The position numbers and the translations under genes are program-made. From Agarivorans aestuarii (GTDB lineage: Bacteria; Pseudomonadota; Gammaproteobacteria; Enterobacterales; Celerinatantimonadaceae), in assembly GCF_019670125.1 (NCBI RefSeq), contig NZ_AP023033.1:3089001-3153000 (forward strand): a DNA stretch of 64,000 bases, read 5' to 3'. Position 1 is the stretch's first letter. Each line of letters begins with the position of its first letter. Positions 27,235-32,324 of this stretch are shown here, one piece after another. Below the pieces are notes generated by a model. It made no database searches, was not told the DNA's origin, and saw nothing but the letters and a program-made list of their open reading frames with translations.

Positions 27235-29442
27235 TTAGCCAAATTTGCCCTGAAAACGCTGAATATATCTCTCCAAGGCTTCGGCAGTAATCGCTTTGCT
27301 GGATAAATAACCTTGATAAAAGGTACACCCTTGTTGTTTAAGAAATGCTAATTGCTGGCGCGTTTCTACACCTTCGGCAGTTACCGTGAACCCCAAATGG
27401 TTGGCCATCGCCAATACTGCATCTACAATCGCCATATCTCGGCTATCACGGGGAATGTCGCGAATAAAAGAACGATCAATTTTTAGCTCATCCACCGGCA
27501 ATCGTTTCAAGTAACTTAGCGAGGAATAACCCGCGCCAAAATCGTCTATTGAAAAGCGAAGCCCGATTTCTTTGAGCTGAGCCATTTTTCGAATGGTATC
27601 TTCGGCGTGGCCTAACACCACAGATTCGGTTATTTCAAGGTTCAGCATAGCGCCATCGATTTGATAACGGGCCATTAGCTCTTCGACTTTGTCGACAAAT
27701 TCAGGGTGATGAAATTGCTTGGCACTGACATTCACCGAAAGTTCTGGCAACAACAAGCCCTTTTGTTGCCAACTAGCCATGTGTTTACAGCTTTGCTCTA
27801 ATACCCACATACCGATATCAATGATTAAGTCTGACTCTTCGGCAATGGGAATAAACTCGGTGGGAGAAACTAAACCTTTACCTTCTGGCTGCCAGCGAAC
27901 CAAAGCCTCTGCGCCCACTAACTCTCCGGTAGAGACCATGTGCTGCGGTTGGTAGTAAAGCAGTAACTCGTCGTTAGCCAACGCTCCCCGTAAAGCGTTA
28001 TGCAGCTTTAATCGCTTATCGGCTTGCTTTTGCATACCATCATCAAAAAAGATAACGGTACGTCGACCGGCTGACTTTGCTTGATACATCGCTGTATCAG
28101 CCTGTTTCAATAAGTCTTCAGCAGTTTGCCCCTTACCGGGAAACAAGGTAATGCCTACGCTGGCACCAATATGCAGCGACTGGCCATCAAAGGGATAAGG
28201 AGAGGAAATAGTTTGAATTAAGCGTTTACCCACAATATTGGCTTGCTGCTCTGCATGTGGTGGACTCTCTCCTAAATCTGCCAGCAACAATACAAACTCA
28301 TCACCACCTAAGCGGGCCAGTACATCGCCCTCGCGAATCAAGCCTTGCAAGCGAGTCGCCACTTGCTGCAAAACCCAATCACCGGCAGCATGACCTAAAG
28401 AGTCGTTAATATTCTTGAAATGATCGAGATCGATAAACAACAAGGCGCCAATGGCATGTTGCTTCTTAGCTCGCGCAAAACACTGGCTTAGCTCTTCACG
28501 CAACTTACGCCGATTAGGTAAACCGGTAAGCTCATCAAAATAGGCCAAGTGTTGAATTTGCTGCTGAGTCGCTTTATTTGCTGATATATCCTGAATGCAC
28601 ACTACATAGTGTGTTAAGGAATCCACCTCATTACAAACCGCAGTTATGGTTTCTTGCTGGGTATAAGGCTGGCCGTTTTTACGCTGCCGTTCCACTTCGC
28701 CTTTACGCCTAACCGTCCCATCAACCGCTTCCATAAAAACCGGACTTGGGTTGCCAAACACCTCGCTAAGCTCGTGTCCTAATAATTCATTCTGTTGATA
28801 ACCAGTAATTTGGCTAAAGGCTTTATTAACCTTCACGATGCGATAATTTGCATCGGTGATAATTAGCCCCTCATTACTTTCAAAGGCTATTGCCGACAAG
28901 CTTAAGGCTTCGCGTTGTTGTTGCAGCTCAAATTCGGAGCTTAAGCGCGCTACAAATGGTGCTAATAGCTGCTCGAGAATAGCGTGGTCAAACTTCGCTT
29001 GCGTAAAGCTAAAGGCAATATAGCCAATCACTCGCTGCTGTTTAACAATCTGATGAGCCCAAAAGCCTTGTAGCGCTTGCGAAATTTCAGGCTGAGTACA
29101 GGCATAATCAGGATGGGCTTGTGACAGCTCTGTGATATGTACCACTCGCCTTGCGCGTATTTCAGCCAGTAAGTTAGCGGATGCAGGGCTCAGCTTTCCA
29201 CTAATAAACTGGCCTTCTCGCCAGTAACGGATACAAGGCAGACTAGGCGTTCGAGAATCAAAATGGGCAATATAACTTTCGTAGGCACCAACTTGTTGAG
29301 ACAAACGGCTAATCAGCTCATCAAAAAAACCTTCGCTAGGCTTAGCTGCTAAGGCGAGCGCTAGCTCGGCAAGTGCCGTGGTAATGTCGGAAGAAGACGC
29401 TGGGGAATTCAAAACGGTGGCTGTGGGTTGAGAACTGTCCAT
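27235..29442 (-). CDS. PAS-GGDEF-EAL cyclic di-GMP signalling protein
   Basis: A 735-residue protein with an N-terminal GAF-like region (about 20-175), a PAS domain with PAC (about 180-290), a GGDEF diguanylate cyclase domain (about 300-465) and an EAL phosphodiesterase domain (about 480-730). The GGDEF signature is intact at 379-383 and is preceded by an inhibitory RxxD site (REGD, 370-373). The EAL motif is intact at 512-514 (GAEALVRW), with later NITES-like (LEITES), DDFGAGYSSL and K-I-D segments (ELKIDRSFI), so both activities are possible. No transmembrane segment is seen. The ATG at 29442 is chosen; a TTG four codons upstream cannot be excluded, and neither has a strong ribosome site. 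Confidence 0.9.
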   Translation of the reverse strand: MDSSQPTATVLNSPASSSDITTALAELALALAAKPSEGFFDELISRLSQQVGAYESYIAHFDSRTPSLPCIRYWREGQFISGKLSPASANLLAEIRARRVVHITELSQAHPDYACTQPEISQALQGFWAHQIVKQQRVIGYIAFSFTQAKFDHAILEQLLAPFVARLSSEFELQQQREALSLSAIAFESNEGLIITDANYRIVKVNKAFSQITGYQQNELLGHELSEVFGNPSPVFMEAVDGTVRRKGEVERQRKNGQPYTQQETITAVCNEVDSLTHYVVCIQDISANKATQQQIQHLAYFDELTGLPNRRKLREELSQCFARAKKQHAIGALLFIDLDHFKNINDSLGHAAGDWVLQQVATRLQGLIREGDVLARLGGDEFVLLLADLGESPPHAEQQANIVGKRLIQTISSPYPFDGQSLHIGASVGITLFPGKGQTAEDLLKQADTAMYQAKSAGRRTVIFFDDGMQKQADKRLKLHNALRGALANDELLLYYQPQHMVSTGELVGAEALVRWQPEGKGLVSPTEFIPIAEESDLIIDIGMWVLEQSCKHMASWQQKGLLLPELSVNVSAKQFHHPEFVDKVEELMARYQIDGAMLNLEITESVVLGHAEDTIRKMAQLKEIGLRFSIDDFGAGYSSLSYLKRLPVDELKIDRSFIRDIPRDSRDMAIVDAVLAMANHLGFTVTAEGVETRQQLAFLKQQGCTFYQGYLSSKAITAEALERYIQRFQGKFG

Positions 29443-29714
29443 AGTGGTCAACAATGAAGCAAGGCATCCTTTGGCTTATGACTAATTAATAAACTAATTG
29501 CTAACACCAAGCGCTTGTTATTCACTCCAATGTGCCCAAGTTCGCTATAACATTCAAGCGATTTTAAGTAATAAATAGTACTTTTCGCTAAGTAATCACA
29601 TTCACAGACTAAGCCAAACTAACCCTTAAGAAATAGTGATCTAGATCTGGTTTTTTATTTATGAAAGTCGTATTCTGAACTTGAAATAATTACTAAATAG
29701 TCTTTGGGAGGCTT

Positions 29715-30170: not shown

Positions 30171-30227
30171 ATGAAAATATTCAACACCCGATTTTTGTTT
30201 GGTTTCTTTTTTACTCCACCCTTTTAG
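30171..30227 (+). CDS. pheL: pheA operon leader peptide
   Basis: An 18-codon frame encoding MKIFNTRFLFGFFFTPPF with seven phenylalanine codons, closely resembling E. coli PheL (a run of Phe with Thr and Pro at the end). Ribosome stalling on the Phe codons when charged tRNA-Phe is scarce would free the downstream sequence to form an antiterminator. The stop TAG lies inside the first alternative hairpin. Its place, 93 bases before pheA and just ahead of a strong terminator, fits the classical arrangement. No clear ribosome site is visible. Confidence 0.9.
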   Translation: MKIFNTRFLFGFFFTPPF

Positions 30228-30300
30228 GGAGGCGGACGGAATTGGTGTAAAAACGAAAACACACAGAATCCATAAAGCCTCCTTCTTAGGAGGCTTTTTT
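30218..30300 (+). promoter_or_regulatory. pheA attenuator (alternative hairpins and intrinsic terminator)
   Basis: Three mutually exclusive structures can be drawn. A pause-type hairpin pairs CCACCC (about 30217-30221) with GGGAGG overlapping the pheL stop. The terminator pairs AAAGCCTCC (30274-30282) with GGAGGCTTT (30289-30297) around loop TTCTTA and ends in six T. An antiterminator pairs the GGAGGC of the first hairpin with the GCCTCC of the terminator's left arm. Stalling at the Phe codons would favour the antiterminator and so pheA expression. The terminator is 21 bases upstream of the pheA ATG. Confidence 0.88.
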
Positions 30301-30320
30301 GTTAACAGGGAATACAACAG

Positions 30321-32324
30321 ATGGCAGACTTAGAGCAGATCCGAACAAAAATAACAGCGCTCGACCAATCATTATTAACACTGCTGACTGAGCGTCGCCA
30401 ACTCAGTGTTGAAGTAGCAAAAAGTAAAATAGAAAACCCCAAAGCGATTCGCGACCAAGAACGTGAACAGTTATTACTGGTTAAGCTAATTAATAAAGGC
30501 AGAGAGTTAGGCTTAGACGCCCACTATGTCACCCAGCTTTATCACACAATTATTGAAGATTCGGTGCTATCGCAACAGGCATTTTTGCAAGGTATTACTA
30601 ACCCTGATATTCATGCTCAAGCAGTGCGAGTGGCATTTTTAGGCAACAAAGGTTCTTACAGCAATATTGCCACCCACCAATACTTCTCGCGCTACAAAAA
30701 GCAAATTGTTGAGTTTGGGTGCAGCGCTTTCCAGGACATTGTTGATACTGTGGAATCTGGCCAAGCTGACTACGGCATGCTGCCAATTGAGAACACTAGC
30801 TCTGGCAGCATCAATGAAGTATACGATGTTTTGCAACACACGAGTTTGTCGATTGTAGGTGAACTATCTATACCTATTGATCATTGTATTCTGGCTCACC
30901 CCAAGGCCAAGCTCGAACAAATCACCACCTTATACGCACACCCGCAGCCTTATGCTCAGTGCAGCCTTTACTTGCGCACCTTAGCCAATACCCGAGTAGA
31001 TTTTGTAGATAGCTCATCTAAAGCCATGGAAGTGGTTGCTGGAGGCGATGATTTAACCGTTGGTGCTATTGGCAGCAAAGTGGGCGGCGAAATGTATGGT
31101 TTGCAAGCCTTAAAAACCGATATCGCTAATCAACAACAAAACTACACTCGCTTTATTGTTGTTTCTCGTAAACCGGTGGAAGTTGCTGAGCAAGTGCCAG
31201 CGAGAACGACTTTTATTATGTCAACGGCACAGCAAGCAGGTTCGTTGGTAGAAGCGCTGTTGGTTCTGCGCGAGCACGACATTAACATGAGCAAACTCGA
31301 GTCTCGTCCAGTACAAGGCAACCCTTGGGAAGAGATGTTTTATGTAGATGTTTCGGCCAATGTTAAATCCAGCCAAATGCAATCAGCACTGGCAGAATTA
31401 ACCCGTCTCACCCGTTACATTAAAGTGCTTGGTTGCTACCCAAGTGAGAATGTTGACCCAACTCTAATCCCTCTCGAAGCTCTGGCCAATAAAGATGTAA
31501 ACAAAGCCGGGGCACCGAGTTTAATTAGCACCGTACAAGAAGATGGCGCCTTATCGAGCCGCTCACACAAAACCACCGCCACAGTAGTTCGTGTTGGCGA
31601 TGTGAAAATTGGCGACGGCGGCTTTATTACCTTCGCCGGTCCTAGTGCAGTTGAATCAGAACAACAGATTGTAGCTTGTGCTGGCGCAGCCAAAGAAAGC
31701 GGCGCAGCAGTTTTAGCCGCCGGTTGTTTTAAACCTCGCAGCTCGCCATACAGCTTCCAAGGCTTAGGTGAAGAAGGCTTAAATTACTTAAATGCTGCTG
31801 GCAAAAAGTACAAACTGCCAACCATGACCGAAGTAAGCGCGGTGGATCAGGTTGTCACTCTAGCAGCGAAAGCTGACATACTGCATGTTCGCTCACGCCA
31901 TATGAAAAACTTTAATCTGTTAAAAGAACTCGGTAAGTCTACCCGCCCTATCCTTTTAGAGCGCAATAACATGGCGTCTATAGATGAATGGTTACACGCT
32001 GCGGATTATATACTAGCCCAAGGAAATCAACAGGTTATTTTGTGTGAAGCAGGGGTGAGGACCCTAGAGGGTAAAAACAAAATCACTCTAGATTTGGGCG
32101 CAATTAGCCTACTTCGCCAACGCACTCACCTGCCAATCGTAGTAAACCCTGGCGAAGCAGTAGAAGAACTAAGTGCTGTAGCGCCAATGGTCAAAGCAGC
32201 TAAGCTGCTAGGCGCCGACGGTATTGTGCTTTGTGCTCACCCCTCACCTAGCGATGCCAGTGTAGATGCTGATAAGTCGCTCGATTTTAAACAGCTACAA
32301 AGTTTGATGAGCGACCTTTACTAA
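30321..32324 (+). CDS. pheA: P-protein (chorismate mutase / prephenate dehydratase / ACT) fused to a DAHP-synthase-like domain
   Basis: A 667-residue fusion. Residues 1-90 are an AroQ-type chorismate mutase with all E. coli active-site counterparts (Arg8, Arg25, Lys36, Asp45, Glu49, Gln85). Residues 104-285 are prephenate dehydratase (ENTSSGSINEVYD; TRF at 276-278). Residues 295-375 are the Phe-binding ACT domain (GSLVEALLVL, ESRP at 327-330). E. coli PheA ends there at 386 residues; here a linker and a domain like type I-beta DAHP synthase (about 425-665) follow, with KPRSSPYSFQGLGEEGL and DKSLDF. Compared with Thermotoga DAHP synthase, the metal-ligand Cys, His and Glu are replaced by Ser442, Glu612 and Cys638 (only Asp649 remains), and PEP-binding Lys and Arg by Glu547 and Ala577. 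The first three activities are expected; the added domain is probably catalytically dead. Confidence 0.93.
   Translation: MADLEQIRTKITALDQSLLTLLTERRQLSVEVAKSKIENPKAIRDQEREQLLLVKLINKGRELGLDAHYVTQLYHTIIEDSVLSQQAFLQGITNPDIHAQAVRVAFLGNKGSYSNIATHQYFSRYKKQIVEFGCSAFQDIVDTVESGQADYGMLPIENTSSGSINEVYDVLQHTSLSIVGELSIPIDHCILAHPKAKLEQITTLYAHPQPYAQCSLYLRTLANTRVDFVDSSSKAMEVVAGGDDLTVGAIGSKVGGEMYGLQALKTDIANQQQNYTRFIVVSRKPVEVAEQVPARTTFIMSTAQQAGSLVEALLVLREHDINMSKLESRPVQGNPWEEMFYVDVSANVKSSQMQSALAELTRLTRYIKVLGCYPSENVDPTLIPLEALANKDVNKAGAPSLISTVQEDGALSSRSHKTTATVVRVGDVKIGDGGFITFAGPSAVESEQQIVACAGAAKESGAAVLAAGCFKPRSSPYSFQGLGEEGLNYLNAAGKKYKLPTMTEVSAVDQVVTLAAKADILHVRSRHMKNFNLLKELGKSTRPILLERNNMASIDEWLHAADYILAQGNQQVILCEAGVRTLEGKNKITLDLGAISLLRQRTHLPIVVNPGEAVEELSAVAPMVKAAKLLGADGIVLCAHPSPSDASVDADKSLDFKQLQSLMSDLY

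Follow-up and report, generated by a model that had tools for sequence, protein, structure and literature searches.

The window analyzed here, a stretch of 64,000 nucleotides from Agarivorans aestuarii (RefSeq assembly GCF_019670125.1, contig NZ_AP023033.1, positions 3,089,001 to 3,153,000), carries on its plus strand at 30321..32324 a pheA open reading frame (ORF) of 667 amino acids. It has no internal stops, and the ORF list and profile matches divide it into a chorismate mutase (CM), a prephenate dehydratase (PDT), an ACT region, a linker, and a C-terminal domain resembling 3-deoxy-D-arabino-heptulosonate 7-phosphate (DAHP) synthase (DAHPS). The CM domain (residues 7-86, 30339..30578; PF01817, 65.8 bits) and the PDT domain (residues 104-284, 30630..31172; PF00800, 189.2 bits) are the pair that characterizes bifunctional PheA (P-protein). 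The ACT region (residues 305-359, 31233..31397) scores 13.9 bits with PF01842, under the cut-off of 27, and is spanned by the NF007910 alignment (3-380), an equivalog model whose own cut-off the protein misses (549.6 of 577 bits). Upstream on the same strand lies a Phe attenuator of the kind that accompanies bifunctional PheA (Rfam RF01859, 30175..30303; cmscan 72.8 bits against a gathering threshold of 55, E 1.2e-11); a leader peptide of 18 codons, seven of them Phe, can be read by eye at its start (30171..30227), and it contains a terminator-like stem (30274-30297), a type of site no commoner here than in shuffles. A sub-threshold Phe_leader match on the minus strand (30268-30321, 30.4 of 55 bits) overlaps the terminator of the real leader and is probably a shadow of the palindromic stem. 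The PheA domains and the upstream attenuator together indicate that this gene is a true pheA with an extra tail.

The tail follows a linker (residues 384-412, 31470..31556) that is variable by the ratio of nonsynonymous to synonymous substitutions (dN/dS) and partly disordered in the structure model, where the local confidence score (pLDDT) falls below 50 at residues 390-407. Because the linker is so short, the N-terminal regulatory domain of DAHP synthases appears to be absent. Residues 421-667 (31581..32321) would form a (beta/alpha)8 barrel that has lost catalytic residues, as judged from profile match, alignment, and model; Pfam DAHP_synth_1 matches residues 427-662 with 173 bits, and both the fold and the sequence model are those of type I-beta DAHP synthase. 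With 274.5 bits against a TIGR01361 equivalog-domain cut-off of 267.75, the domain can be wrongly labeled a DAHP synthase by automated annotation, and pathway models built automatically may assign to such genomes an enzyme that does not work.

In the type I-beta DAHP synthase of Thermotoga, Cys102, His272, Glu298, and Asp309 are the metal ligands, and R126, K131, R186, K207, and R237 contact phosphoenolpyruvate (PEP). We compared these nine positions (C102, R126, K131, R186, K207, R237, H272, E298, and D309 in type I-beta numbering) with the window domain, whose register against type I-beta enzymes is ungapped in both sequence and structure comparison. Only one of the four metal ligands is kept, Asp649 (32265..32267; Asp309), the others being replaced in the alignment by Ser442 (31644..31646; Cys102), Glu612 (32154..32156; His272), and Cys638 (32232..32234; Glu298); among the PEP residues, K131 and R186 are kept and three are lost, replaced by Ala466 (31716..31718; Arg126), Glu547 (31959..31961; Lys207), and Ala577 (32049..32051; Arg237). 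The protein thus keeps three of nine catalytic residues as against 47 of 60 other near-invariant sites, and throughout its family it is the catalytic residues that are preferentially lost while other near-invariant sites stay. The sequence-only reading had described a full-length tail with its catalytic residues gone and its fold intact, which the alignment, the residue counts, and the structure model bear out; judged on these, the tail is predicted to be a pseudoenzyme in which catalysis was lost preferentially and the fold kept.

Several of the replacements are themselves conserved. Families and genera in our genome set are coded f and g, respectively, with f1 the window's own family and g1 its own genus. 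Position 547 is Glu in all 12 own-family and all 20 f6 proteins; Asn609 (32145..32147), which replaces the invariant Asp of the DPSH motif, is Asn in 12 of 12 and 19 of 20, respectively; and residue 612 is acidic in all 12 own-family proteins and non-acidic in f6. Gln571 (32031..32033) is Gln in 52 of 52 fused proteins as compared to 12 percent of 69 standalone enzymes. The KPRSSPYSFQGLG loop (residues 471-483, 31731..31769) includes the KPRS form of the KPR[ST] loop, which we take to be the erythrose 4-phosphate (E4P)-binding loop; KPRSSPYSF is kept in nine of nine g1 and g2 proteins and lost in g3/g4. R526 is mostly kept in g1. By conservation scores and models, the best-kept stretch among dead domains is residues 528-606 (31902..32138), from alpha4 to beta7, except for a variable loop at 582-590.

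With the full protein as query, at least 46 of 295 genomes of the order had, among the matches listed, a PheA match extending past residue 560 with no internal stop. The sequence of a 47th fused genome (G263) ends at a contig end, and a family search added five further proteins, giving at least 52 distinct fused proteins; the tail is full length in all 12 own-family genomes. No PheA fusion outside the order was found among long open frames in the matches listed from a 369-genome class sample, in which the candidates L067, L069, L122, L123, and L124 were rejected since none of them carries PheA and the synthase as one protein (L123 encodes them in separate frames). Separately, the 13 listed genomes of f11 (genus g14) differ from most of the order in giving no PheA match (E up to 1e-40), and PheA there may be of another type or missing.

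All nine catalytic residues are kept in six of the 52 fused proteins (L014 of f15, L015 and L016 of f14, and L036, L037, and L038 of f8), and the other 46 have lost some to nearly all of them in many different ways. Among standalone type I-beta enzymes with at least 35 percent identity to the window domain, counted after lower-identity rows and duplicates were dropped, 69 of 69 keep eight of the nine residues and 68 also keep R126. DAHP_synth_1 scores descend from 262-267 bits in the three intact fusions tested through 187 in L020 (f20), 173 in the window protein, 81 in L112 (f6), and 59 in L113 (f10) to no match in L109 (f25), and in f6 tails the catalytic loops are shortened and the KPRS loop is absent. 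Intact site, dead conserved barrel, shortened catalytic loops, faint remnant, and no tail thus form a graded series within one protein family, which makes the transition from enzyme to regulatory part directly testable.

A test for purifying selection on the tail across relatives, which the sequence-only reading had proposed, gave a positive answer. In the three own-genus pairs that were not saturated (the other three were), Nei-Gojobori dN/dS for the domain was 0.032, 0.016, and 0.032, rough estimates since dS exceeds 1 in two of the three, and 0-0.023 for PDT in the same pairs; domain values were 0.005 in a g2 pair and 0.06 in two f6 pairs. For the linker, dN/dS was 0.14 (L001/L006), 0.11 (L001/L009), and zero (L001/L004), and it was not computable in the other own-genus pairs. 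The dead barrel is under strong purifying selection in the window's genus. Where the site is intact, the domain evolves at 0.45-0.51 of the rate of the PheA core, and where it is dead at 2.4 (own genus), 1.4 (own family), 1.9 (f8), 4.5 (f6), and 3.9 (f25) times that rate. These rates and ratios indicate that constraint on a dead domain is weaker than on a live one, yet far from absent.

The history of the fusion was examined with a careful tree of 49 domains, including 17 of the 52 fused ones, and a core tree of 25 of the 52 fused PheA cores with three outgroup rows (L013, ended by a contig end, was excluded from the core trees). The 17 fused domains form a single clade with 100/99 support, and a quick tree of 86 domains agrees (support 99). 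The 25 fused cores form no clade, and forcing them together is rejected by the approximately unbiased (AU) test (p 0.0004). The earliest branches are those of the f8 and f14 fusions (forks supported at 84/70 and 89/96), and short PheAs are nested inside. Dollo parsimony gives seven tail losses (6-8 over 200 bootstrap trees). Losses of catalysis number six under Dollo parsimony (5-8 over 200 bootstrap trees) and four under unordered parsimony, both with L014, and about three by inspection of the core tree when the long branch L014 is set aside; a domain tree in which all dead tails form one clade is not rejected (AU p 0.305). Taken with the intact relatives, the trees support one fusion early in the order, presumably old, followed by later losses; the intact fused relatives, the single fusion, and the repeated loss of the tail go beyond what the sequence-only reading foresaw.

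That several independent fusions took place, or that one fused gene spread by transfer, is in our view unlikely. Independent captures are hard to reconcile with the single clade of the 17 fused domains tested, and transfer with a core tree that groups most families and with the gene order raiA-pheA, which is found in the window and G150 (f1), G020 (f20), G005 (f6), G268 (f25), and G010 (f10), i.e., in one or two genomes of each family, and presumably also in E. coli. In G005, G268, and G010 a type I-alpha DAHP synthase gene lies near pheA, as in the enteric-like G266. However, support at the base of the core tree is limited to the values given above, L014 of f15 is a long, oddly placed branch, and no raiA match is present in the flanking sequence examined around the intact fusions (f14, f15, and f8) or the dead f8 fusion of G254, making some transfer or relocation likely. 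In the window, the raiA position is held by a 124-amino-acid hpf/raiA-like ORF (the name was assigned by the analyst) upstream of pheA. Adjoining it is a 739-amino-acid ORF with a TTG start (27235-29454, minus strand), GGDEF/EAL-like by eye, and a neighbor 64.5 percent identical to this ORF is present in G150.

In three genomes from other orders of the class (L079, L086, and L088), the gene directly after pheA encodes an intact type I-beta DAHPS as a protein of its own, and a TyrA-like frame comes next. This operon-like order would make a fusion easy and is a plausible precursor of it. As direct sources, these three neighboring synthases were rejected: in the domain trees the fused clade does not have them as its nearest kin, so that fusion of neighboring genes stays only a plausible route. 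More tentatively still, and perhaps, a trifunctional enzyme (mutase, dehydratase, and DAHP synthase under the same ACT domain) may have arisen a single time at the root of the order. Its synthase part would repeatedly have become a regulatory pseudoenzyme whose former site has a conserved chemistry of its own (Glu547 for Lys, Asn609 for Asp), and short enteric PheA would be what remained after the tail was discarded. If this is true, the short PheA of enteric bacteria is a secondarily shortened protein.

DAHP synthases of type I-alpha and type II, one of each, are encoded in the window's genome (G000:C1:1104951-1105964 and C1:4215652-4216965). No separate type I-beta enzyme was found in any of the 12 own-family genomes, in which the fused protein is the only match (E up to 1e-20). 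Two own-genome hits were rejected as spare type I-beta enzymes, one being KdsA (468.7 of 457 bits) and the other matching PseI/NeuB over 86 amino acids, under the cut-offs of those models. Given its type I-alpha and type II enzymes, and lacking a second type I-beta one, the window's genome probably does not need the tail for the first step of the pathway, and the tail has no partner of its own class to recruit. A single type I-alpha copy is present in six of six own-family genomes tested, and the enteric-like G087, G047, G016, and G266 have three to four copies each and no type II enzyme; in 30 hand-picked genomes, a link between type I-alpha copy number and tail state is suggestive only.

We consider it probable that the tail now serves as a scaffold or allosteric part of PheA. 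Early in the order, a type I-beta DAHP synthase that, to judge from the short linker, already lacked its N-terminal regulatory domain would have been fused once to the C-terminus of PheA; by parsimony, the synthase would then have lost catalytic residues about three times or more in several lineages, and other lineages would have dropped the whole tail. In the window's genus the dead barrel is retained by the strong purifying selection seen in dN/dS. It may use the conserved stretch near beta6 to pack on itself or on the mutase, dehydratase, and ACT portion of the protein, and so would set how PheA oligomerizes and how its mutase and dehydratase respond to phenylalanine. From its Rfam match, the gene retains a Phe attenuator like ordinary pheA. 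Several observations weigh against this reading. The own-genus ratios carry the roughness of high dS, and in the f25 pair dN/dS was 0.20 for the domain and 0.12 for PDT; dead domains outpace their cores at the rates given above; L109 of f25 is far decayed (no Pfam DAHP match, NCBIfam PRK12595 77.8 of 279 bits); in L019, L020, L090, and L113 the excess of losses at catalytic sites falls short of significance (p 0.06-0.35); and 6-8 losses by parsimony imply that the tail is dispensable in some lineages. Conservation is not limited to one face (helix alpha1 scores 0.70, the 582-590 loop only 0.25). Both structure models were built from alignments that also contained intact domains, at a pTM (the global confidence score) of 0.53 the position of the barrel against the other PheA domains is loosely defined, and the models are of monomers only.

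The chief rival, close in outlook to Song et al. 2005, is that the tail is a decaying remnant, a pseudogene-like passenger tolerated because it folds and heading for loss. The repeated tail losses, a tail that outpaced its core in each of the dead groups compared, the strong decay in f25 and in L089/L090 of f8, and the shortened catalytic loops of f6 would all be expected of it. We nevertheless think it doubtful for the window protein because the usable own-genus pairs give a dN/dS of 0.016-0.032 and even the two f6 pairs one of 0.06, the domain is full length across the whole family, catalytic residues are lost preferentially there while other near-invariant sites stay, and a passenger should not hold Glu for K207 in 32 of 32 f1 and f6 proteins or Q571 in all fused proteins. 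Alternatively, the old active site may have been repurposed to bind another metabolite, e.g., E4P through the KPRS loop, and to feed into the control of PheA. The retention of KPRSSPYSF in g1 and g2 and the conserved replacements (among the 32 f1 and f6 proteins, E547 in all and N609 in 31; an acidic residue 612 in 12 of 12 of f1) point that way; however, the loss of the loop in g3/g4 and its absence from f6 mean that an E4P site cannot be the shared function, residue 612 is non-acidic in f6, and we regard the idea as quite unlikely.

The sequence-only reading had also suggested that the barrel recruits real DAHP synthases, tying the first step to the Phe branch. Type I-beta DAHP synthases form tetramers, and the single type I-alpha copy in the own-family genomes tested, as against three to four in four enteric-like genomes, would suit such pairing, as would an actinobacterial chorismate mutase that, in the available text of PMC10520331, is controlled through bound DAHPS. 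With only the fused type I-beta match in the 12 own-family genomes, and with the type I-alpha and type II enzymes belonging to other classes, recruitment through same-class assembly becomes less likely, and we consider recruitment as a whole improbable. Lastly, although E612, C638, and D649 in g1 could still hold a metal and the KPRS loop and mostly R526 are retained there, a still-working synthase with shifted ligands is scarcely credible given the ungapped register and the change of C102, R126, K207, R237, H272, and E298, all kept in the six intact fused relatives and in standalone enzymes.

The fusion itself has been reported: in its available text, Song et al. 2005 (PMC1173090) describes an S. 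oneidensis aroQ-pheA fused to an aroAI-beta "pseudogene" of unknown origin and calls it "bizarre". The sequence-only reading, which noted longer PheA proteins in Shewanella-like bacteria and took the fusion to be possibly known, was thus correct on this point, whereas its suggestion that the degeneracy was less noted was only partly right, that too having been in print since 2005. No further paper on a PheA-DAHPS fusion was found in a full-text literature search, which left most subscription journals outside its coverage; the evolutionary series and the evidence of selection are without precedent in that search, the fusion and the degeneracy being already known.

The S. oneidensis fusion, as presented in the available text of PMC1173090, has the same architecture as the window protein and drew the same judgment of a degenerate synthase part, but that text concerns S. 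oneidensis only, whereas many families, intact relatives, a single probable fusion, and purifying selection on the dead domain are described here. Compared with type I-beta DAHP synthases (Thermotoga 1rzm, Pyrococcus 1zco, and Aeropyrum 1vs1), the window tail has lost six of nine catalytic residues, appears to lack the N-terminal regulatory domain, and is fused behind PheA. Enteric P-protein PheA (NF007910, about 390 amino acids) shares the CM-PDT core, the Phe leader attenuator, and the raiA-pheA neighborhood but has no tail, and its short forms nest among fused ones on the core tree. The DAHPS-CM fusions of Listeria (3nvt) and Geobacillus (5j6f) and the non-covalent CM-DAHPS complex of Mycobacterium likewise link the first step physically with chorismate mutase, giving allosteric control; in these the synthase is active, whereas in the window protein it has apparently lost its site.
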